In this document: positions 24,304 through 39,392 of the stretch, piece after piece | How the letters are laid out: every line of letters begins with the position of its first letter | Numbering within the stretch: position 1 is the stretch's first letter | Assembly: GCA_022605405.1 (NCBI GenBank) | Contig: JABYQQ010000024.1 | Coordinates: 434,001 to 498,000, forward strand | Length of the DNA: 64,000 bases | Reading direction: 5' to 3' | Origin: Earliella scabrosa | Taxonomy: Eukaryota; Basidiomycota; Agaricomycetes; Polyporales; Polyporaceae | Made by a program: the position numbers and the translations under genes | The notes under the pieces: model-generated | The model's input: only the letters and a program-made list of their open reading frames with translations | Databases searched by the model: none | What the model was told of the DNA's origin: nothing

Positions 24304-24788
24304 TAATTAGGTTGCACTGCGCTGGTCAGTGATCCCCACCATTGGCATATAGGCACGGTCCGACCGGACGTTTGAGTGGAGACGGGCAATACTGTACATA
24401 GCGGGTTTCTCGGGAGCTTCCCTATCATTATTGTCAGTACTCTCGAATGAATCGTTCGCATGAGGGATTCACCGATTGTCGCGGGCGCCGTCGTCTCTCC
24501 CCGGCATGCAATATGAGTTAGCTATGCAGATGGGATAGTGGGCGACAGCCTCGTGTGAGCACAGGTGCAGCAGTGGACGGGATGTGCGGTTCCGTGTGGG
24601 TACGGATGACGGCATGCGATCTGGTATGTAGACCGTTGCAGCACGCCGGAGTGGTGTTTGATGCAGCGCCGAGGACGTCTGGGCGCATACAGCGGTGCAT
24701 TTTACACAGATCGCAAGTGTGTCAGACGACTGAGAGGGGCGAGCGGCGAGTAAGACTGGCTCTCCCTATAACTTGCAACGCCGGCGGA
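24304..24788. other. 3' flank of P450 B1 up to the element target site
   Basis: This stretch holds the B1 3' UTR and non-coding sequence ending in the CGGA (24785-24788) that reappears at the far side of the 14-kb element. No gene was seen. Confidence 0.5.
24785..24788. repeat. Candidate target-site duplication (left), CGGA
   Basis: CGGA directly precedes the left terminal inverted repeat and also directly follows the right one at 38935-38938. Four bases can match by chance (about 1 in 256), but the positions are exactly those predicted from the ends of the inverted repeats. Confidence 0.5.
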
Positions 24789-24874
24789 CTATGGCGCGCC
24801 GTCTGTCGATTTATTCCGGCGCTCACGCATTTACTCGTCGCACTGCCACACTTACCTGTCATTAGTCTGCCTCA
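24789..24874 (+). repeat. Left terminal inverted repeat
   Basis: It is about 86 bases long and matches the reverse complement of 38849-38934 with about six mismatches; the core includes GTCGATTTATTCCGGCGCTC. Inward of it (24889-24985) are several GCGCACACACAT-like short repeats, also present inward of the right end at about 38750-38830. Such subterminal repeats are typical transposase-binding arrays. Confidence 0.8.
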
Positions 24875-24985
24875 CTAGTAATGACAGTGCGCGCACACAT
24901 TTTCGACTTGCGCGCACACACATATTTCCGGCACGCCGCACACATGTAAGTTGGAGTGTGTGCGACACTCACAGACTTATGGGCA

Positions 24986-25521
24986 CACACATGTCACAAA
25001 TACTCATGCATCTCTGTTCTGGAATATTTGTGCTGTATCAGTAAAACATGATCAAATGACATACATTCCTACTGAATCTTGCTCTGTACGATGGTGGCCC
25101 TCAGTATTGCAGATAGGACATCACTAGTAGAGATGTTTCACTGCTCCAGCAAAGCAATAACGGGGAGGATGATCATGACATTATCACTGAGTCTACCCTA
25201 GAGTCTCAATATAGTGCAAGGACGTGGACGTCTGACTCGGACCAGCTGTGCTATCTAACATGGGTATCTAGAAACCAGCAACATTGGACAGATAAACGTC
25301 AGAAAGCGCATTATCGTTAAGGGGGACACTATATGAGACTCTGAGTATCATAGAGACCGTAACTCAGCAGAGACGTGGGATAACGTGGTCATGAACATGG
25401 GTAGTGGGTATGATGAGACGTGTAGAGACCGTGGATACATCAGATGAGATGTTATAAGAAGATAGTGCTTGAATAGACACAGCAACAGAGGAGATATTAT
25501 GCAGCATCACGTACCACTGCT
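24986..25521. other. Non-coding left arm of the element
   Basis: About 0.5 kb of AT-richer sequence lies between the subterminal repeats and the first element gene. No open frame of note was seen. It probably contains 3' UTR and element regulatory sequence. Confidence 0.45.
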
Positions 25522-27313
25522 TCAGTTGTTGGTCTCCTCGTCCTTCATCGTCACCTTATAGGGATCATCTTCGGGGTCCAGGGCAGGGGGATGAGGAAGC
25601 CCCATGGTCTGGCCCTTCCGCCACTCCGCCATCCACTCAGAGGGAGACTTGATAGACTTTGGAGAGGCGGCAGGAGACCAGGGGGCGTTGTCAGAGAAGG
25701 CGGCATGGTCAGGAGTAGAGCGCGAGGGATTTCCCCCAATGCTGGCATGGCTGAGATCCTCCTCTGCCGGACCATCACTGTTGGGAACAAGAACAACAGG
25801 TGGCGTTGGGGTACGCTCTGGAATGAGGTATGAGCAATGCTACTTGAGATTAGACAGACTGGACAGTACCTTGAGGAGCTGGTAGTCCTCTGAGACGTTT
25901 AGTCTTGCGAGTCTCTTTCACATTGTGGCTGGATCCAGATCCTCCAGGCGATGATGCAGGAGAGGGAGAACGAACCCGCTTCTTTCCTACCAGACGGGCA
26001 GACATCCGGCGAGGCTGGGTAGAGGGCGGTGGAGGTGACGGACTAGGGCTAGGAACTTGCAGAAACCCACTGCTAGTAGTGGTTGTTGGTGGTGGAGGAG
26101 GAATGGATGGAGGTGGAGGAGGTGGGAGGGGCTCAAAGGATGAGGACTCAGCGTCTGAGCTGTAAGCAGCGACCGCCTTTCCCTTGCCCTTGTTCTTTGG
26201 AACAGCTTCGCTCTCGTCCTCCTCAACATCGTCCTGACTGTCGTTCTCGTACTCCTCTATATCTCCATCACGTACATGCTGAAGAGCAGCAGATAGATCA
26301 AGATAGATCTTGGAGGGGATGGGGTTCTTCGTCGCTACAATTGATGGATCAGCAGAACAAATCCACCGCAGAGGTTGTTGCTTACCAAAATACAGAGTTG
26401 AAAGATCGCTGTTGCGAGCACGCGCCGGATGGATGTAACGAGTGACAATGGAGCCGTTGTACCCCTCAGTTGGCTGCACAACCAGAAGGCTATTCCTCGT
26501 GCGCTTAAGAAGCGCCCAGTGGAGATCGGAGCAGCCCTCGAGGCCTTGATGAGCCCCGTAACGTAAGTCGAGATACTCAAAGAGCACTGGATAGAGTGAG
26601 CGGAGGTAGTTGTCGATCTCTGTGAGGGTCCACTGGGAGTCGATCTGAAGTTGGACATCGTTCTTCGTGAGTCGCACCAGACCAATGACTTGAAGAAGGT
26701 TGAGCGTTCTCTCGTCAGGCACAAGCGTGTCATAGAGCTCGAGCAGGAAGTTCCCCTGCTTGGAGACCTGTATCGTATCGTAACAATGATCAACCCTAGT
26801 GTATCATGGTAATTGATAAAGAAAGTTACGCACCACAGTCTCGTAGCACCCCACAGGGCTCATCACAATGTTCCCAATGGCAGTCAAAGCATGGGTGGTG
26901 CCGGAAGAGGATGTGTTCCGAGGGGGCTTCTTAGAGCTTGAAGAGGATGATGATGCCTGGCCACGGATGCTGGTAGTGCGACGAGGGCGAAAGGACAATA
27001 AGGAAGAGGAGGGACCGGAAGTACGGGAAGAAGATGATGATGCAGACCGAGAGGTGGATGCCTTGCCTGGACGGAAGCCTGAGACTGCCTCTTGGCGCGC
27101 AGTGACCTGGGTGCCAACACTTCCGTATGTGGCGAGGATCTCGTCAAAGCTCTGCGCCGATGTCTTGTCCTTGGACGGATAGTGAAGCTGAGCGAGATGT
27201 CCACACTTTTTGCATTTCTTCTTGTGCTGTTCAAGTCCATCGCAGTCGCAAGGTTGACCATCGGCTTCTTTGAATGCGTGACAAGGTTGTTGGTCACCTT
27301 CGCTGTTCTTCAT
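25522..27313 (-). CDS. Element gene 1: Cys/His zinc-motif protein with disordered Ser/Pro-rich tail
   Basis: Exon 1 begins at 27313. Residues 10-45 carry clustered Cys/His (PCHAFKEADGQPCDCDGL, then KKCKKCGHLAQLHYPS), which looks like a small zinc-binding module. A Ser-rich basic stretch follows. The second exon (from about 26767) has VSKQGNFLLELYDTLVPDE and LNLLQVIGLVRLTKNDVQLQ, a folded-looking region. Then come an acidic stretch, a KGKGK motif and a polyproline/Ser-rich region with SARLVGKKR. The last exon ends DPYKVTMKDEETNN at 25522. Introns are GT-AG. The function is not recognised. Its place next to the integrase gene, on the same strand, suggests a DNA-binding or accessory role in mobility; this is inference. 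Confidence 0.6.
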
Positions 27314-27550
27314 TTCCGGGTGAAACTGGGGGAGCGAATGTCTAAAGGAGCGAGAAAGGTGGAAGTCTGAAAGAATGAGAATGAAAGTTGATAGATGTGC
27401 TGGCAGAGTGTCCTTGACGTTCAGTCCTCTCCAACACCACGTTGTAAGTCGGATAAAGCTGATTTGTCAGCTGATTTGCTTCTGTGACAAAGGTGAAGAT
27501 AGAATGAAGACGGTACACAGAAACATAGATGGATACAAATATGAGACGGT

Positions 27551-29617
27551 TTACAACAAAAGACGATTCATCATCTCTAATCCCTGTGCCCAGGCAACAG
27601 CTCGAGGCCACCAAATCTGAAAAGGAAGAATTACAGAACGACCACGGCCACTACGACCATAGGGTATAAATTCTTCTTCGCCATACGTACCCTCCTCCCA
27701 CTCCTCTGGCTTGAGACCATATCCATCAGGAATGATCTTTCGATCCTGAACCTCCTGTAAGCATCTCAGGAAGGTTTGTTCAGTCTCAGCATCCTGGAAT
27801 GGAGAGTCGCTGGAGGGAACAGGTATGGGAGGGTGACGGACATGTCGTTGTTGATCTTCTGCCAGACGGGCACGTATATCTTCTGAGTCTGACTCTGATG
27901 AAGATGAGGAGCTGCTGTCATCTGAAGACGATGAGTCCTCATCGTTGATGATGTCACCATCATAGGCATCGTGATCGTAGTGTCCAGCTCCTGTTTGACC
28001 TTGTCGTCGCATGAAAACCTCTCCATCCACCCCATAGTAGCGATACAGCAGTTGGGGATGGACATCATTGAAGTCCTCTCCTGGAAGATAGCCTTCTCGG
28101 AGCATGGCTAAGAAGCGCATATCCTTTGAGCGATGTTAGTACTGAAGAGTATCAGACAGGGTACAACTGTGAGTCGCGTACAGATGGCGTCTGATTGTGG
28201 GCCTTCCTGGAGATCTGGTGGTTGTTCCAGTTGGCCTGAAACGCAGCGCAGTCTTCATTGATGGCGTCGAGGAAGAGAAAGTGTAAAAGCCATAGATGCT
28301 CAGGTTTGTCGGGATCAAGAAGGTGATCGCGTTCAAGTCTGGTGAAGAATGCCCTCCACTGTATTGCGAATTGGGTACCAACTTCAACCCACATTCGCTC
28401 GATGCGGGTGTTTCGAGTTGAGCTGAAGTTATTGAGATTAGTGCCGGCAATATAGAACAGAACAGAACAGGTCAGTACTCGCCTTCCCCACATAAAGGAT
28501 GCTCTGTTAGGCCCTCTTTTCTCAATCATATATATCGCGACATCCATGTTCTCACCACCTCTATCTCCCCGTACTCTGGATGGCAGACCGTAGACCTCTA
28601 CTGCTTCTAGGAACAACTGGAAAACTGTGGAAGCTTGGTTGTTGGTGCTGGCGCGAAGCATAACTAACTGTTGATATCGTCGTTAATAAAGATCAGAGCA
28701 GGTGGCGCATATCAAGCAGCTGCTCACCATTCTGTCGTATCCATCAGCACCACCATGAATCACAATACCCCAACGTATAAGCTTGTGATGCCCGTCGATA
28801 TGCCAGAGATAGTTGGGATAGGGAACAGAGTACTCTCGCCGATCAATGGTAGCGTGATTTCTAAGTACCTGTCCCAGACCATCGACTCTACGGATCGATG
28901 CTCTGACACGGCTACGCTGGACTTTGATGCCATGAGATGCGAGGAATCCTTGAACATAACGGCTTCCTGACTTGGGGTGAAGCTCGCGAAAGTGACGGAC
29001 AAGAATGTCGAGGGCATGGTCAGGTATGTCGGAGTAGCGTGGAGTAGTGAGATTGTGGGCCTTCAGCTGCTTTGCAAGTGTCTGGCGATGGACACCCAGA
29101 GCATTCGACAAGGCTGTGAGGGTGATATGACGATGTGAGGAGGTGGCCTCTTTGAGAACATCAGGGTCGATATGGATCGAAGGCCGCCCTCGCTGTCCTG
29201 ATAGAACATATGTCACAACTTGGGGTTTGACAAGGACGTCCCTCCTCCTATAACGTCGACTAAGATCTTCATAGTATGCCATCCTATCGGATATAAATCT
29301 CACCTTCCTGTATCCTCCGCAGCAGCTTTGAGCTCATTAACCAAAGAGTCAAATGCCGCAAAAACGATGGTCGCCCATTCTTCATCTTCGGTGAGAGGGA
29401 CGAGCTCGTGGAGAATGGGAGCCATGCGATTGACCAGACGGTCAGCATGCAGGCGGAATCTAATGGGATCTCCATCCTCAAGCCGTAAGAGTTGACTTGC
29501 AGCATCGTAGGCGTCAGATAGAATTGTGTATGCCTGGTTTATATTGGCTGCCCAGTTCTGACTATGAGGAGGAACTGGAAGTGGAGGGAGATGAAGAGGA
29601 CGGGGATAGGTAGTCAT
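27551..29617 (-). CDS. Element gene 2: integrase-core (DDE) transposase-like protein
   Basis: Five exons run from 29617 to a TAA at 27553-27551. Intron 1 (29303-29248) joins AAEDTGR to RRDVLVKPQVV in frame. After a GRPSIHIDPDVL segment comes a helix-turn-helix-like stretch (LTALSNALGVHRQTLAKQL), then the catalytic core. The core has LWHIDGHHKLIRWGIVIHGG (first Asp), RVRGDRGGEN (second Asp) and TRNTRIERMWVEVG (Glu), a DDE triad. The exon 3/4 intron begins with GC instead of GT (AG|GCGAGT) yet keeps the frame. The C-terminus is acidic/Ser-rich. Proteins of this type are abundant in Agaricomycetes and annotated only as integrase core-domain proteins. It is intact by inspection and the best candidate for the enzyme that moves the element. 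Confidence 0.8.
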
Positions 29618-29832
29618 CGATGTCTGTAGTAAGACAGGAGAGTATTGAGGGGATATTTCCTATAGCAAAAGCTCGAGAGGCAAAGGTGAGAGGAATGAGC
29701 TGAGAATGGAGACAGAAGCATGGCTGCTGCATGAGGCACTCACGTGTTGCGGAATCGATTGCAGTGGGGTCGATGTTCAAGCTTTCGCTCTCTGTGCTCT
29801 CATCATTTCTGCAACTTCTGATCTTGAACGCT

Positions 29833-30802
29833 ATGGCTCCTGTGGGGTTTCTCAATATTAACAAACACCTCACCTGGTACCTGTCAGAGGGGGTGATTAT
29901 CGTGAGTTCTACCTTCAGGTCATAGTATTGGACAGAGCGGAAGAACTGAACGCATATTGTCCTAAGGTCTTAGACGATGGAACAGCATATCGTTTGCCAA
30001 CCTCTATGCTCAAACTGGATTCAGGATGCTTTCAGGGCTGCTTGTCCATCCCCGGTGATGGCAAGGAGGGCCTCAGCGATGACAATCCCATTCGTCTTCC
30101 CAATATCTCATCAGAACACTTTGATATATTGCTGAACTTCCAATTCCGACAGTAAGTCTCAGATATCTGCTTGCAGTACTGATGGTGATACTTACTTGCT
30201 TTAGCATCGTTCCTACCACACCAGAGGAGCTCATGGTTCTGTTAAAGATGGGTCACTTCTTCCAGTACGACACTGCCCAGTCATACGCACAAGGTCGATT
30301 GGAGTCCATGGAGTCCTTTCCTTCCGTTCAGAAGTTCATCCTCGGCATGAACTGTCATATCCATCCCTGGGTATGTGATGGCTTTAGGAAGCTCGTGGCC
30401 GTTCCCGAGACTTTCTTCAGTCCAGAAGAGGGCGCTCAGATGGGTGTCGTTCCGATGCACACAGTTCTCACCACCATCATTCGTGTTTGGAAATTGCGCC
30501 GTACCACTGCCCTTTCCGTGCCCCCTGTTCAGCATGCTAAGGCTTGTCGCGGCAACTTTGTTTGCGACTCAGCATGGTCTAGGGAGTGGCAGAAGGTTGT
30601 AGGACATCTTATGCATCCGAAGAGATGTCTCCCCATGGTGACTATCTTACAGCAGCTGATGGACGCGGCAGACATCTTTGAGATGCACCGCGAGTGTAAG
30701 AAGCGCACCTTGGATCATATTTATGGGCAGAAATGGTTGCATTCGGAGGAGAAACTCGTCGCAGAGCAGCTTGATGGATTGCTTAGATGGCTCAATATGT
30801 GA
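29833..30802 (+). CDS. Element gene 3: BTB/POZ domain protein
   Basis: Three exons (29833-29901, 29967-30151, 30205-30802) join in frame to 283 residues. The N-terminal part (HLTWYLSEGVII, then VLDDGTAYRLPTSMLK, DSGCFQGCLS, HFDILLNFQFRH) is a BTB fold as seen in the large mushroom BTB family. The region after it (PEELMVLLKMGHFFQYDTAQ) is the usual helical extension. BTB domains mediate dimerisation and often link to Cullin-3 ubiquitin ligases. It is the only left-half element gene on the plus strand, so it may be cargo or a later insertion. The start at 29833 was chosen because it gives the normal spacing to the BTB core; an upstream ATG at 29731 is possible. Confidence 0.75.
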
Positions 30803-30882
30803 TTCTCTGTATCAATTTCAGCTTTGGTATAGAGTTGTATACTACGAAGTATGTTCATGTAACAGAAGTACAAACGTATCAA

Positions 30883-32430
30883 TCAGTTGGCTGACTTGGA
30901 GTTACGGAATACAGCAAGTTCCTCCTCAGTGGGCTGAATGTTCCCACCAGGCCACTTCTCCCATTTGAGCTCGTCATCCAGATAGAACGAGCCCTGCCAC
31001 CCATTACGATCTTTCTCCCAGTCAACTGCATGTCGATCAGTGTGACATACCAGAGACGCGCGTTGACCGGTGTAGGGTCTGTTGAAGTGCGTAATCTGAT
31101 GGGATGGGAAGATGACGAAGTCACCAGAGCGAAGCAGGATGACGAGTCCTGGCTCATATAGACACAATTCGCCGCCAGCGAACTTGCCTATAGCCATGAC
31201 CAGACAACCTCCGAGATCCAAACCGTCACGATGAACCTTGGTGTACGAGTTGAGATTGATGACGAAGCCAGAGAATGGGTACGCTGGAGCGCGATCATTG
31301 CCCGGTGTAAGTCGCGCTAGGGCACTGATGGTGACAGTCAGTTCAGGGAAGCGATCCTCCATCTATGATGCTAGATCAGCCAGAGAATCTTATCAAAACG
31401 AAATGCACGTACCCGGTTCTGTATCCACTCAAAGACCTCATCCAAAGCGACACACAGATTGTTATACTCGCGCTGGTGGATCCTGCACTCCTTCGTGAGG
31501 TATGGGGGACCTCCCTGAGTATCATTTGATCTGGTGGTGTTTGCACGACGGAGATAGAGAGGATGAACATCAGGAGGTGCATCATGTCCCTGTGGCGATA
31601 GTCAATATTGTTCTGGAGCTCTAGTCATAAGATACGAACCTTTGTGGAGTATCTAGAGTAGTATGAGAAGTGCAAACCTGCGAACTGGGGTGGAGCACCA
31701 TTCTCTTTGATGTCCTCAAGAAGTTCCCTCTCTGCTGTTGCCCCAAGAGCCATTTCAAGATTTCGAAGCAGAGATTCTCGAAGTTGCTGAGGCATGTCGC
31801 AGGCAAGATATAGCAAATTGCTGCCGTCCTTTGCCTGGAAATGCAACTCATGCCTATCGTCCACTATGTCAGAGCTTCATTCAATCAGCTGCACATGGAC
31901 GTACCCATCATATTTTGCAGCGTCAATCATAACATACTGATCTGCCTCTTTCACTCCACTGTCCTTGTCGAACAATATGTTCTGACCTGGCAGCTCAGAT
32001 CCGCTCTCATCATAGCGTCTCTGCAACTGTAAAGAAGAGTCAGATAATCACATAGATCAAACGAGTTCAAGTAACTCACTCGAGCTTTCAGATCGTCAAT
32101 GTTCTTAGGCTCATAAGCCAACGCTGCACACGCCCTCTGCTGGTAAGACCACTGGTCACGACCCTCTTGGGTGGGAGGATAGGGGGCTCGTAGATTGTCC
32201 TTGTGCTTGGGGTCGTAGTCGGTAGGGATGCATATGTAGGTGGAGCCAGAAGAGGTGGACGACTCGACATGAGACGAAAAGGATTCACCATCTCCATGAT
32301 CATGTTCATCGTCTGAGTCGGACAGAGGTGACTCATACTCACTCCCTGTCTCGCTGTCCATCGCGCTGAGATAGGAGGGTGTATACGTGCCCAGAACTCG
32401 TTGCTGAATGTAGTCAAAGGAGGGAGGCAT
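30883..32430 (-). CDS. Element gene 4: TET/JBP-family 2-oxoglutarate/Fe(II) dioxygenase
   Basis: Exons run from about 32430 to a stop at 30883. The N-terminus is acidic and disordered. A conserved block follows (GHDAPPDVHPLYLRR, GGPPYLT, LTPGNDRAPAYPFSGFVINL). The double-stranded beta-helix core has KVHRDGLDLGG (HxD iron ligands), GGELCLYEPGLVILLRSGDF, SHQITHFN (distal His) and GQRASLVCHTDR (Arg for 2-oxoglutarate). This matches the fungal TET/JBP group, whose relatives oxidise 5-methylcytosine or thymine in DNA. All expected metal and co-substrate residues are present, so it could be active. Introns are GT-AG and in frame. An alternative start at 32541 lies almost against the stop of the neighbouring gene at 32545. 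It could alter methylation of the element or its host; that is inference. Confidence 0.82.
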
Positions 32431-32544
32431 AGTTTCAGATGGATTGAAGGACGTAGCGCTGGAGGGAAAGGGCACGAAGAAGGAAGACCAGACATCCCAC
32501 TTGCGAGGTACAAGCTTGAAGTCTCTATAGAGGATAGTCATCAG

Positions 32545-34355
32545 TTACCATTGACTGGTGATATAGAGATGAAGATCGTACAGCTGGTTGATAGCACAGA
32601 AGAGGCGATCTGATGTGACCAGATCGGTACAATTGATTTGACGCGGCAGCTCATATCGTTCCAGCAGCCTAGTACTGAAGAGAGTAGACATGCACATTGG
32701 GGCTTCCCGTGCAAGCAACTGCAGCAAGGGCAGTAATCGATGCTGAATGGTCAGACCCATCTTGCTCGCTATAGAGGATAAAGAGCATGAGCTAGATGAA
32801 AAAGCAAGTTTGAGAAACAACGTGCCATCTGGAAGACGTATGTTGTGTGCAATAATTCTGGTCTGTTCCCAGAGCAGACCTCCAAAATCACTACCCAAAC
32901 CGCGATAGGCTATCACCATTAAAAGATAGATAGAGCCTGTTCAAAAGCACCAGTCAGTAATTGGCACTTAGATGAACTGATGTGAGAGACTTGCCTGCTG
33001 CAGCCAAGGCAGCGTACCTCTGTCCATTTGTGATCCATGACTGGAAGGTGCGAAGACTGGGATGATTGTCCTGATCCGCTATGAGGGCTCTGTAGACTTC
33101 GGTGTGGTACTTCCAGCCGCGCTCCTTCTTGATGCTGCAGATACGATGTCTCAAGGTGATGCTGATGTGAGAGTGCTCAGACGACATACCTATCAACCTT
33201 GATCACCAGCTGAACCTGGCTCAGCATCTTGGTGAACTCTGCAGCGTGGGCGTGATGATGCGATCGTTCGCATCTGGCCAAAAGTGAGGAAAGATTGTCC
33301 ATAGCAAAGGCGTGTCGTCCTTCCTCCCATGGCGCATTGCTTCCTAGTGCTTTCATGTACTTCACCCAATTCTGGCACTGACGATTGTTGAGACTGCCCT
33401 CAGTTCCCTCACATAGGAGAAGAACTAGTTCTTGAGCACGCTGGCTAGTGGGGTTGGGTTTACTGGTGTCTATGATGTAGGAGTGGTGTAACTTCGCAGC
33501 CTCCACTTGCTCTTGCTCTGCACGTTGCTGCTGCATGCGGGGTTCCCAGACCTCGGAGTTCCTCTCAAAGAAGAACTGACGTGAGCCCTGGATGGTACCA
33601 CGACGACAGTCTGGATTCCAGTTATGATTGGCGGGGTATACTGGTTGAGCAAGGGGTTCTGGAGCTGGAGCTTCGGAAGGAGGAAGAGAGAGAGGAGCAG
33701 AGGCAACTGGAGGTGGCCCCGTCGATAGCTTGTGACCGTGACCTCCACCACGACCGCGGCGTTGACTTCGGCCTCGACCCCGCCCCCGAGAGACTTGGAC
33801 AGCAGCAGCAGGGAGGGCAGAGGTGAGAGCAAACGTGTGTTGCATTGCAGACTGCACTACAGCCGCTGGAGGTTTGGACAAGAAAGACGTAGACTCCGTG
33901 TGAGAGGATACAGGAGAGATCATTCTAGAGGACTTGATTGCTTTGTGGGAAGTGGCTACTGGGGATGTTGATGTGGGAGTACGAACTATAGCGGGTGAGG
34001 AAGGCGGAGTTGGAGATCGTGACTGAATGGGAGAGGAAGACGGCAAGACAGATGGGGATGGGATCATGGGTGATGAGGGAACAACAGTGGGTGACGAGGG
34101 AATAGTGATAGGAGACGATGGTACAACAGAGGCAGAGAGAGATGAACGGTGTTGGGAATATGGAGAACATGAAGCACCCAAGGGGTCAGGTATGGACAAT
34201 GACGTGGGTAGAGAGACGAGAGGGGATGAGGGCCCATGTTCAAGTCGACGAATTGCACTTGCAAGCAGTGAGCTAGGAGAGACGACAGACCTCAGCACTC
34301 CCAGCATCTCCTCCACCTCCTCGCCAGTGAGCTGGTAATAGGACGTGTCTGACAT
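32545..34355 (-). CDS. Element gene 5: large protein of unknown function with RG-rich middle
   Basis: The start at 34355 (MSDTSYYQLTGEEVEEML) is followed by about 150 residues of Ser/Pro low complexity, then an RGRGRGRSQRRGRGGG basic patch. After that come a folded-looking part (QFFFERNSEVWEPRMQQQR, LNNRQCQNWVKYMKALGS) and a C-terminal part (KKERGWKYHTEVYRALIAD, GLLWEQTRIIAHNIRLPD, IQHRLLPLLQLLAREAP). Two of its later introns appear to begin with GC (GCAAGT and GCACGT) and end AG. I do not recognise the family. It is co-oriented and nearly contiguous with the TET/JBP gene, which suggests a shared role. The RG patch suggests nucleic-acid binding. Confidence 0.6.
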
Positions 34356-34695
34356 CTGGAGAAAGTATCAGCACATTCAAGTTGACATCCATCGTGAGAA
34401 GCAACTCACTGCGGTGGACAACAGGACAGCAAGTCGGCAGGAATACAGTGGTCAGAGTAAACAGAACAGATGAGAACGAGGGAGAGGGAGAGGGAGAGAG
34501 CAAGGGCAACGGCGGGCAGGGACTTCGTCTCATCGCCTCTGCCACACCCACAGCGCGTGGAGTATGGGTGCAGTGCCTCACCAAAAAGGAAGGGGGGAGC
34601 CGACATGTAATGAGATGGGACGTACACACAGCGCAGCCGCCCAGTGACGGCGCGCGCAGCGGAGAGCAGACACTTGAAGAGGTTGGCCATTCTGA

Positions 34696-35130
34696 GACGT
34701 GCGCAGCCGCCCAGCGCGCGACAGAAAAGGGAGACCTGGGCGCGCGCCACAGAGCCGACGCTTGACGGATTGGGACGTGCGCAGCCGCCCAGCGCACGAC
34801 AGAAAAGGGAGACCTGCGCGCGCGCGACGCACAGCCGATGCTTGACGGATTGGGACGTGCGCAGCCGCCCAGCGCGCGACGAAAAAGGGAGACCTGGGCG
34901 CACGCGCCGCAGAGCCGACGCTTGACGGATTGGGACGTGCGCAGCCGCCCAGCGCACGACAGAAAAGGGAGACCTGCGCGCGCGCGACGCACAGCCGACG
35001 CTTGACAGATTGGGACGTGCGCAGCCGCCCAGCGCGCGACGAAAAAGGGAGACCTGGGCGCACGCGCCGCAGAGCCGACGCTTGACGCATTGGGACGTGC
35101 GCAGCTGCCCAGCGAATGAGGAAAGGAGGG
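34696..35130. repeat. 80-bp GC-rich tandem repeat (minisatellite), about 5.4 units
   Basis: GACGTGCGCAGCCGCCCAGC recurs at 34696 (variant), 34774, 34854, 34934, 35014 and 35094, giving a 78-bp step and then 80-bp steps. Units alternate between a version with CTGCGCGCGCGCGACGCAC and one with CTGGGCGCACGCGCC, so the true period is 160 bp. The last unit is diverged. Long open frames across it come from the repeat and are not taken as genes. Confidence 0.9.
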
Positions 35131-35285
35131 AGACTTGCACGCAAGCAATGCGAAGGGAACGCTGAGTCAATCCGGACACGCGCGCCCGTGGACTGGAAAG
35201 GATTTGACAGTGAGGGAGCATTCAGGGCAACGTGCACCAAAGGGGACCCACCATGTACCCTAGCCACCCTCGCCCTGGTCGCAAG

Positions 35286-35560
35286 CTACCACTGCATACG
35301 CGGTTCCCCCACCAGATACCCGTCCTGGGCGTGCGAGTATGTCTTGTACAGCGCGTACTGGACGAACATGGACGCGTAGAAATCAGAGGTGAGCGAGTCT
35401 GTGCAGTGCACATATGCAATGGTGGGCTCTTACCTGCGGGAGGGGTGAAGACAAAGGAGAGGCCAAAGGGAGGTACGTCTTGCCAGACCAGTAACGCATA
35501 GAGAGCAGAGGTGCCGGTGAGCAGCTAGGACAGACCCAGCACCTGTGGACGTCGGAGTCT
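35286..35560 (-). pseudogene. Probable 3' fragment of an unidentified membrane-protein gene
   Basis: On the minus strand, a hydrophobic stretch (TGTSALYALLVWQDVP, then FGLSFVFTPPA) is followed by an apparent intron. The second piece reads SDFYASMFVQYALYKTYSHA and ends GEPRMQW with a stop at 35288-35286. The composition looks like a real protein C-terminus, but no 5' part or start was found. I interpret it as part of the captured host segment that also carries the BET pseudogene, with the two genes back to back. The family is not recognised. Confidence 0.35.
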
Positions 35561-35701
35561 GACAGGGAGGACGAACATCGAGGGTGAGAAACAGAGTGCA
35601 GCAAGCGCCGGCGGCGAGACTCACAAACGTCACGTGGACTCCTATAGGCGCAAATCGCAGACTCCATAGCTGCGTACAGCTCTCTCTGCGCAACATCGAC
35701 C

Positions 35702-38542
35702 GTGCCAGTGGGCACAGCGCCCATATCCTCCACGCACACCGTCTCTCCACTCCCAACTTCGCCACGACTGTACCTCCTCTCCCTTTCACACGCCGCCCGG
35801 CCGTATACGGTGCACGACGCGCTGTCCACAAACCTCAACGGCGTCCATCTCGACTCCGTCTCTGCCCCGGATTCCCCTGCCGTCGACTCTGTTGCCACTC
35901 CCGTCAACAACTCCGTCGTCCTCGACATCAAGATTGACGTCGACTACACCGGGGACAGTGACGTCCGCCACCAGGCCCCTCGCCGTCCAGCCTCCACTGC
36001 ACGCGGCTGAAGGGCCTGTGCGCACCACGCACGCCCTAGGGCAGCCTCCACCCGGTCCCAAACACCGTCTCGCGGAGCGCAAGCACGCGCTGGCGCGGCT
36101 GCGCGGCCATGTGCCAGAGGTCCTCGACGAGGAACTGTGTGCTGCCCCCCTCAAGGTCGAGAAGTTGGAGAACGCGTCGGTCATCCCTCAAATTAGTACC
36201 CCGTAGATCCCGGTACGTGTTCAATTAGTTCCTCCGCGTCGACGCGCGCTCAATACCCCGAAGACTCGCTTCCCATCGCGCCCCTTGACGGTACGTCCCC
36301 TCCGCCGCCGGGGGAGCTCCTGGAGGACGTCAAGATGGCCAAAGAAAACCCATCCGCTATCGGCGGGGACGTGGAGATGTCAGAATCAAGTGGCAAGGCG
36401 AACGGTCTCCCTAACGGACAAGTGCACGAGTTGCCCGTCGCCACCCCGGTCTCTCCCTCCCTACCGACAACTCTCTCGATGGGCCAACACCGTTTCTGCG
36501 TGTCGATGGTCCGTACAGTTGAAAGACGCGTCACCTTTCATCCAACCCGTCGATCCCATCGCTCTCGGCATTCCCCACTATCCGAGTATCATCAAGCGTC
36601 CAATGGATTTCTCCACCATCGAGCGCAAGCTCAACGCTTCCAACCCCTCCAAGCCCGATCCTAATCCTGCCAATCCCCGTTACCACACCGCCGAGCAGTT
36701 TGTCCAAGATGTTCGGCTGATCTTCACGAACTGCGTCACAGACTCACACTCAATGGCCCCGACCATCCCGTCACTCAGATGGGTAAGCGGGTCGAGGCCG
36801 TCTTCGACAAGCAGATCAAGCCGATGCCTCCCCCGGAAGAGGTGCGTTGAAAGTCCATCGATGTAGTACGCTGTTCTAACGTCCTGTAGCCGAAGGCTCC
36901 TGCACCTAAAAAGGTTGCGTCACCTCCGCCCCCACCTCCTGCACCGCCGAAGAAGCAAGTTCGACGTGCTTCGACCAACGTTCCGGTGATCCGCCGTAAC
37001 GACGAGTCCGCCGTTGCTGGTCGTCCAAAGCGCGAAATTCACCCACCTCCTCCGAAGGACCTGCCTTACGCAGAGGCGCCGCGCAAGCCCAGGAAGGCGA
37101 AGGCTCCGAAAAACGCAGCTATCGCAGAGCAGCTGAAGTTTTGCGAGAAGGTGTGGAAGGACTTGCATCAGAAGCAACATTACAGCATCGCGCATCCGTT
37201 CTACGAGCCCGTCGGTACGTCGCCATCTCTGCGATTTGTCATTATATGTGCTCATCAACCACAGATCCGCTCAGGATGGGTATCCCCGAGTATTCAAAGG
37301 TGGTCCAAGAAGCCCATGGACCTGTCGACGATGAAGAAGAAGTTGGACGCGGGTAAATACCCCACACCCGAGAAATCCCGCGACGACTTCAGGCTCATGA
37401 TCAAGAACTGCTTGCTGTTCAACCCTCCCGGCAATCCCATCCACGAGGCCGGCAAAGCACTTCAACTCCTCTTTGACGAGAAGTGGAAGAATATGCCGGT
37501 ACCCCGTTCCCACGATCCGAGCGAGGACGAGGATGACGAGGACGAGGACACGAGCGATGATGAGCGAGCGCGTGAGTGCACCCAGTCTAACCCACAAGAC
37601 TTGGCTAATTCGATTTTGCACAGGCATGGAGGGCATGATCGCGGACATGGAGAACCAGATCGCGAACATGAAGGCGTCGCTGAAGCGGAATGGGAAGGAC
37701 AAGCACCAGCCCAAGAAGGAGAAGGAGAAGCGTGAGAAGCTGACTCCGCCTGTCGCCTCCCCAGACAGCGCACACTCGCCTGCCCTCGCTCTCTCCTCAG
37801 GCTCGTGCTATCTATACTCCCGCCTCCGACGCTCGCCAGCGCAGCCTCTGCACGCTCTCCCCCACTCGACCTGTGACTGCGCCGTGTCGACGTCGAATGG
37901 CTGCACTGCTCCCGCCGTCGCCCGCTCGCCTGCGCTGTCCGCACGTCCATGCCCCGGGCTCGGACGCCCACCGCTGCTCGTCGAAGTCCGCGCCGAAGCA
38001 GTCGAAAGCTCCTCCTGCGCCCAAGGGGAAGAAGAGCAAGAAGCCTGTGACGGACGACGATGTCTTGACCTTCGAGCAGAAGAAGGACCTGGGCGACACC
38101 ATCAGCAAGCTCAATGGAGGGAAGCTGGAGAAGGTCATCCAGATCATTCATGAGGGCGTGCCCGAGATCCGCCAGGTGCGTACTTCCCCGTGTACTCGTT
38201 CGCGCATACTGACCCAATCCCGTACAGAGCATGAGGAGATCGAGCTCGAGATCGACCAGCTACCAGCAGCTGTCTTGACGAAGCTCTACAACTTCGTGAT
38301 CAGACCGCTGAAATCACCAGTCAAGCGACCTCGCACGGGCAAGGGCACTGGTATTCGTGGGCTGAAGCGGAAGAGCATGGACGAGGACGTCGAGACGAAG
38401 AAGATACGCGCGCTTAAGGAGGAGCTCAAGTCGTTCGAGCAGGGCGGCCGTACACACGAATGGCGCTGCGACGGCCTACATGAGCGAGCATTCCTCTGCA
38501 GAGTCCAGCTCAGATGAGAGCTCGGCGAGTGATTCGGAGTAG
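35702..38542 (+). pseudogene. BDF1: BET double-bromodomain gene (BDF1-like), decayed
   Basis: The order of a fungal BET protein is preserved. Bromodomain 1 spans about 36520-36840 (ASPFIQPVDPIALGIPHYPS, RPMDFSTIERKL, LNGPDHPVTQMGKRVEAVF). Bromodomain 2 spans about 37130-37500 (LHQKQHYSIAHPFYEPV, KKPMDLSTMKKKL). The ET domain lies at about 38055-38320 (LTFEQKKDLGDTI, IELEIDQLPAAVLTKLYNF), with an acidic tail ending SASDSE at 38542. Introns are retained, so it is a genomic rather than retro-copy. The frame is broken near 36515 (before LKDASPF), near 36740 (about 8 extra bases), at 37304 (one extra C before AAGAAGCCC) and near 38450. BET proteins read acetylated histones and are normally essential, so an intact copy should exist elsewhere. 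The 5' end is unclear. Confidence 0.75.
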
Positions 38543-38848
38543 GGTGCTGGCGTGTTTCTCTCTCGGACTACCGTCGTTGTAATCCTTTGTCTTCCGCCGC
38601 GTTAATCAACCTCCTTCGTGCTCGGTGACCTCGTTGGAAGGGTGTCTGTACTCCCCGCTGTCTCATCCGTCGTCGAGTTATACTCTTGTGATCATCATTG
38701 TACATGTCTAGAGTCTCAATGGAAGAGCACTATGATTTTCTGGTATTATCAAATACATGCTCGTGTGCGCAAAACAGAAAAATGTGTGTGCGCATGCCAG
38801 AAATGTGTGTGTGTGCAGTCGAATGGTGTGTGTGGCGGGGTCCATTAA
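38543..38848. other. BET pseudogene 3' flank and right subterminal repeats of the element
   Basis: This is non-coding sequence. The part from about 38750 to 38830 has repeated TGTGTGTGCG-type motifs, the inverted counterparts of the left subterminal motifs, leading into the right terminal repeat. Confidence 0.55.
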
Positions 38849-38934
38849 TGAGGCAGACTAATGACAGGTAAGTGTGGCAGTGCGACGAGTAAGTGTGTGA
38901 GCGCCGGAATAAATCGACAAACGGTCCACCATAG
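38849..38934 (-). repeat. Right terminal inverted repeat
   Basis: This is the reverse complement of 24789-24874 with about six differences. It ends CCATAG and is followed directly by CGGA (38935-38938), the candidate target duplication. See the left repeat for shared features. Confidence 0.8.
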
Positions 38935-38938
38935 CGGA

Positions 38939-39392
38939 CAGAGGCAGCCTTGACCAAAACGGGGTCGCGCCCACGCGGTTACGGGCGTCCTATGTGGGTG
39001 ATGGCTGTGCCATACGCCACTGCGGTAGGACGATCAGTTCGGAAACGGCTGGCATTTCTGTCACTCCACCAACTCAATGCGCCTCTCGCTCTCAACGTGT
39101 TCTCTGATACGCCCTGTAAGACGGCCTATGTCGAGAGGAGTCTGGGAGATTGTCTCCTGCGGAATGATGCGCGCCCACTCGCCGGCCTTTGGCAGACGCG
39201 TGAGTGTGAAATCGTCCGGAGTACGTCAGACCCGCTTCTGGCACCGATATCACCCTCGAAGGAGACGTCGTCGGCGCTGCTGTGCACACAATGCTTCGGC
39301 CACCACGTTCATCACCTATGACATATAATCCCGGTCACGACCCGCGCCAGCTCGCTTCCCTCCATCTTCTCTTCCTCCTCCTCTTCCTTCCA
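38939..39392. promoter_or_regulatory. Upstream region of P450 B2 with TATA box at 39324-39329
   Basis: It shares scattered blocks (GATGATGCGCGCCC, GTACGTCAG) with the B1 and B3 upstream regions. TATAAT lies 69 bases upstream of the B2 start. Unlike B1 and B3, no A-type P450 remains on its left; the mobile element begins instead. Confidence 0.5.

Follow-up and report, generated by a model that had tools for sequence, protein, structure and literature searches.

The 64,000-nucleotide stretch of Earliella scabrosa DNA analyzed here (the window; assembly GCA_022605405.1, contig JABYQQ010000024.1, positions 434,001 to 498,000) contains a 14,144-bp DNA transposon of the IS3EU superfamily, which carries a gene for a predicted TET/JBP dioxygenase next to its transposase. 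The element is probably a cut-and-paste transposon whose predicted TET protein would aid it against silencing. The main new evidence comes from the comparison of two copies, which shows that the element keeps its TET gene and lets a captured host gene decay, as would be expected if TET serves the element.

The element occupies positions 24790-38933 of the window, on contig C24 of a genome of 51.67 Mb in 48 contigs. It is delimited by terminal inverted repeats (TIRs) at 24790-24875 (plus strand, starting with TATGG) and 38848-38933 (minus strand, ending with CCATA), which are identical at 79 of 86 positions, and it is bordered at 24784-24789 and 38934-38939 by the 6-mer GCGGAC, a perfect target site duplication (TSD). 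Before trimming to the true ends the arms extended over 24789-24877 and 38846-38934 (92% identity) and were the sole inverted pair of at least 25 bp reported in 24500-39300. A second, near-complete copy of 14,168 bp is located on contig C23 (C23:267770-281937), where the TATGG..CCATA ends are flanked by a perfect 6-bp TSD of their own (CTACTG). The two copies share 97.9% identity across the first 10.2 kb, and their right parts align in three blocks of 92-93% and two short blocks of 77-78%. Five matches to the left end were obtained from the genome, two each from the window and C23 pairs and one from contig C2, where one decayed element end is accompanied by approximately 2.4 kb of related but interrupted sequence. 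The Earliella genome showed no empty site: the 384 and 391 bp adjoining the ends each matched once. These results confirm that 24790-38933 is one DNA transposon. An initial interpretation made from the letters of the window only (the sequence-only reading) had correctly described the repeats of about 86 bp, an insertion into a P450 array (P450 genes, PF00067, lie on both sides) and subterminal short repeats, which take the form of GCACACAC or GTGTGTGC motifs close to both ends in both copies. Its 4-bp duplication, CGGA, is the inner part of GCGGAC and was misread because the outer G and C are complementary by chance and were therefore counted into the repeats; the perfect 6-mers at both full copies rule out a 4-bp TSD. 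It had also considered that the two repeats might be independent small elements. This idea, or that of a chance pair around ordinary genes, could draw weakly on the presence of a related BET gene without other element parts on contig C3, where it is a host gene, but it is refuted by the C23 copy, in which ends and gene order are preserved at another locus and a separate 6-bp TSD is present.

The transposase gene (27551-29617, minus strand) was modelled with five exons (29304-29617, 28728-29259, 28483-28667, 28182-28422, and 27551-28123; one GC donor) coding for 614 amino acids, and its reading frame is open in the C23 copy as well. The protein matches the integrase-type DDE family PF24764 (E 1.3e-66, match starting at residue 248); a catalytic triad D, D, (34 residues), E was counted manually on the model and relies on the GC-donor splice, and no HHCC motif was seen by eye. 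KDZ transposons and TET genes are reportedly the subject of a 2014 paper; consistent with the sequence-only reading, which had proposed an integrase-type transposase outside this class, no KDZ family was among the matches of 19 open reading frames (ORFs) of the element. The assignment to IS3EU was made because of the 6-bp TSDs (at the window copy, the C23 copy and a shorter relative on contig C4), the ends TATGG..CCATA, which are of the TA..TA form of the superfamily, and a DDE transposase of the integrase type that lacks HHCC and whose first catalytic D falls within the expected distance of 100-300 residues from the N-terminus. The possibly undescribed transposon class put forward by the sequence-only reading is ruled out by these features and by the published TET-carrying IS3EU elements described in the accessible part of PMC12730594. 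A new superfamily is likewise very unlikely: the gene set does differ from that of rust IS3EU elements, and no alpha-kinase was found in the 19 ORFs, but TSD length, end motif and transposase type agree with IS3EU as described.

The TET/JBP gene (30883-34355, minus strand) was modelled with nine exons (33190-34355, 32995-33134, 32826-32936, 32582-32768, 32080-32524, 31905-32026, 31640-31853, 31413-31589, and 30883-31362) and 1013 amino acids. A putative separate upstream gene (33177-34367) was merged into it because the public proteins P0001, P0004, and P0129 join these parts; P0001, from Earliella scabrosa itself, falls within the model with the first 405 of its 459 residues. HRD and H of the iron triad HxD...H and the distal R are present in the window TET exon and in most relatives, and the catalytic residues are retained in both element copies. 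The predicted fold of P0127, a Ganoderma relative, matches CcTET, NgTET, and TET2 (mean predicted local distance difference test score, pLDDT, 54.5). Triad, distal R and the modelled fold of this relative thus identify the product as a predicted TET/JBP dioxygenase, in agreement with the sequence-only reading. Searches of the PDB returned nothing meaningful with the TET exon or with the L034 ORF, and with the TET alignment A2 gave TET2 at E ~1 only, CcTET being absent from the list. Neither of two hallmarks of transposon-borne TETs was detected: the window protein has HRD and not the HxE that defines the PE hallmark, and the AG hallmark (Gly/Ser and Asp, like Gly331 and Asp337 of CcTET) is not seen after HRD in its motif HRDGLDLGGCLV, a judgement made on the motif and not on an alignment with CcTET. 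A further type, PU, is likewise defined by conserved residues of its own. Among other loci, the AG pattern is present in L056-L059 and L019 and not in L034, L035, and L060.

Substitutions between the window and C23 copies indicate purifying selection on both the transposase and the TET gene. Across the 1013 TET codons, 48 synonymous and 16 nonsynonymous differences were found (ratio of nonsynonymous to synonymous differences per site, pN/pS, 0.105; Fisher p 3.6e-18). Exons 1-5 account for 34 and 15 of these, respectively, and exons 6-9 for 14 and a single one (p 7e-9). In the transposase, 10 synonymous and 5 nonsynonymous substitutions separate the copies (p 3.7e-4), and neither gene contains a coding indel between the copies.

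The opposite fate was observed for a captured copy of a host BET gene (double bromodomain and ET) at 35786-38705 (plus strand). Its source is a host gene on C3 (L054), whose main exons are open and to which it is 90-95% identical by segment; the introns are retained, indicating a copy made at the DNA level. According to a three-way alignment inspected by eye, the presumed start codon, some 300 bp and several short stretches, whose loss disrupts the frame, are missing from the window copy, whereas a deletion of about 570 bp has removed the second bromodomain from the C23 copy, which also carries a new stop. Both copies share two insertions, approximately 167 and 217 bp long, that the host gene lacks. 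A bromodomain gene is present, but its status as functional cargo is rejected on account of the breakages in both copies. It could still be imagined that the block acts otherwise, for example by serving as a decoy or by giving rise to small RNAs against the host BET gene; both copies retain it, and 90-95% identity to the host could permit homology-dependent effects, but the breakages differ between the copies, and we regard this explanation as improbable. No report of bromodomain capture was found in the open literature searched. A minisatellite (34696-35114; 5.3 copies of an 80-bp unit) sits between the TET gene and the BET block, and matches to its repeat units occur in the C23 copy too.

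Because TET is under constraint in elements whose BET passenger is decaying, TET likely has a role in the life of the element itself. This contrast points to the existence of such a role, not to its nature; the anti-silencing function suggested by the sequence-only reading is plausible, with indirect support from selection on the gene. The shorter C4 relative shows that elements of this kind also occur in another form: it measures 9,249 bp, has a 6-bp TSD (CCGGCA) and TA..TA ends, and its gene 1, transposase, and BTB-like ORFs (see below) were matched, but no match to the window TET or BET ORFs was found in 18 kb around it. Its ends are less sure because the inverted repeats are weak and were picked jointly with the TSD; other 6/6 TSD pairs exist there, with poor inverted repeats. 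Since it had no TET ORF match, TET does not seem to be needed for transposition as such. This would suit the alternative of a host TET gene that the element picked up by chance and on which any selection acts for the benefit of the host, as would the fact that the element does carry captured host DNA. However, the next matches to the TET catalytic exon in the Earliella genome after the two element copies are just 28-32% identical, the closest relatives outside Earliella are in Ganoderma, Artomyces, and Mycena, and TET is constrained next to a decaying passenger; a chance capture is unlikely.

The reading of TET as an aid to the element can be put into the following steps. The DDE transposase would bind the 86-bp TIRs, perhaps together with the subterminal motifs, cut the element out and insert it at a target opened by staggered cuts, which would yield the 6-bp duplications. 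Gene 1, the transposase and the divergent BTB-like gene form a core common to the TET-less sibling; the lineage of the window element also has the TET/JBP gene and captured host DNA with the BET gene. Within and near the silenced element, TET most likely oxidizes 5-methylcytosine, although the substrate could be a different methylated base, and this oxidation may ease silencing by CG methylation and so aid expression or mobility. With transposons that carry TET, it can be tested directly whether an element counteracts its silencing. Here TET is constrained and a passenger decays within the same elements, and a TET-less sibling is present in the same genome, which would permit a comparison of methylation, expression, and copy number.

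Several observations weigh against this reading. The window TET scores 26.4 bits against Tet_JBP (PF12851), below the cut-off of 34.9. The structural model is of modest confidence and represents the relative P0127 and not the window protein, whose last exon folded poorly on its own (pLDDT 46.4). Between the copies, noncoding divergence is approximately 1.5-1.8% in the left part, increases to 2.8% in the TET introns and reaches 7.6% at 34356-34900, an interval that includes the start of the minisatellite; the history of the copies is therefore mosaic, and exchange or conversion of the left part between them is likely. Possible traces of methylation are seen in CpG, with the comparison confined to the window and the two copies: the observed/expected ratio reaches 0.84 for the element as a whole and 0.70 for its left 6 kb, compared with 1.05 for the remaining window, and transitions between the copies in the aligned left 10 kb are 4.2 times likelier at CpG (70/1,035 vs. 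72/4,263). Against such traces, the excess of CpG loss in the BET copies relative to the host gene is not significant (26 vs. 17, p 0.22; 14 vs. 10, p 0.54). Finally, current mobility is uncertain because just two near-full copies exist.

Two further genes complete the four coding-looking units of the element (gene 1, transposase, BTB-like, and TET/JBP). Gene 1 (25522-27313, minus strand; limits approximate, based on ORFs with introns unmodelled) codes for a predicted protein with a Cys-rich N-terminus and no Pfam match above cut-off; it matches the C4 relative at 36-42% and is also present in the C2 remnant. The companion gene at 29862-30801 (plus strand, opposite to the other three) is presumably BTB/POZ-like judging from its sequence pattern, Pfam having given no match. 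A match to it adjoins the transposase in divergent orientation at all four relatives (C4, C1/C10, and C6), with 24-54% identity by segment. Relatives of the transposase are numerous: at least 629 of 7,988 scored candidates match at E <=0.001, and the 120 matches listed include many Agaricomycetes and also fish, sponge, coral, and mussel. Within the Earliella genome 21 of 23 scored candidates match, four of them, beyond the two copies, at 55-64% identity. No convincing end pair was found in 10 kb each at the C1 and C6 relatives. The transposase loci at C1:5319740 and C10:781720 (L014, L015) are 99.9% identical over 3,513 bp, and another relative of IS3EU may thus have transposed or been duplicated recently.

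Tet_JBP matches were obtained at 39 places in the Earliella genome, 29 of them above the cut-off, with the two copies of the element scoring lowest. Other pairs of TET and integrase genes occur in the same genome. Tet_JBP genes at C24:646731-647207 (with an HWD motif) and C28:49132 each lie 7,259 bp from an integrase gene of a second transposase group, group B (C24:653990 and C28:56391; L060, L061, L062). Four compared copies of this group end in CAGCCATA with differing flanks, and no left end of this TET/IS3EU-like element was found in the 20 kb examined. On C14 (L019; C14:277500, C14:279154), an AG-like TET motif, HRDTAGQATWYD, is situated close to a group-B integrase transposase, their starts being approximately 1.7 kb apart. 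It is conceivable, though somewhat doubtful, that different IS3EU groups of one genome took up different TETs (the window type, the group-B Tet_JBP in two places, and the AG-like form beside a third), so that IS3EU captured TET several times in mushrooms, and that the transposon TETs of Polyporales include a fourth type, so far undescribed: an enzyme of approximately 1000 amino acids with a conserved N-terminal extension, borne by IS3EU elements and retained by selection because it counters methylation of the element.

Among known TET proteins, CcTET of Coprinopsis cinerea has the solved fold closest to the modelled Ganoderma relative, at 11-14% identity. Ganoderma is a reported host of IS3EU elements, which are more numerous in G. 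leucocontextum (PMC8955403, accessible part); this fits the finding of four TET relatives in that species (P0129, P0130, P0131, and P0133) and proves nothing. The integrase-like DDE transposase is shared with GingerRoot/IS481EU, in the available account of which TET is not mentioned; GingerRoot, which that account unites with IS3EU, likewise produces 6-bp TSDs and in most cases ends in TA..TA, whereas the IS481EU TSDs of about 4, 15, or 25 bp are unlike those of the Earliella element (PMC10045372). As far as the accessible text of Kojima 2025 (PMC12730594) extends, TET-carrying elements of the Agaricomycotina are Kyakuja, Zisupton, EnSpm, Plavaka, and Helitron2, those of the Polyporales solely Kyakuja, and AG-type TETs are assigned to Kyakuja and Zisupton only. 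Kyakuja (KDZ) is likewise an Agaricomycete DNA transposon with a TET/JBP gene, but it has a KDZ transposase, 7-bp TSDs, and CA..TG ends without TIRs, in contrast to the 6-bp TSD and 86-bp TIRs found here, and its TET is of the AG type, with Gly/Ser and Asp after HxD (PMC12730594). The nearest known systems are the TET-carrying IS3EU elements of seven rust species and one of Tuber indicum described in the same text, with which the Earliella element shares the 6-bp TSD, TAYGG..CCRTA ends, and TIRs longer than 30 bp, and, as in three of those families, the same orientation of TET and transposase (PMC12730594). In all published cases given there TET lies between the transposase and an alpha-kinase, for which no match was obtained in 19 element ORFs (the minisatellite ORF 34406-35221 left out), although small exons could hide one. 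Unlike those elements, the Earliella element resides in a Polyporales host, has a BTB-like gene between transposase and TET and a captured BET copy, and departs from the hallmarks stated in that source through a TET of neither the AG nor the PE kind (PMC12730594). No report of a TET-carrying IS3EU element in Agaricomycetes was among the open-access papers listed in the searches. The element thus combines a known superfamily and a known kind of cargo with a new host group and a new gene set.
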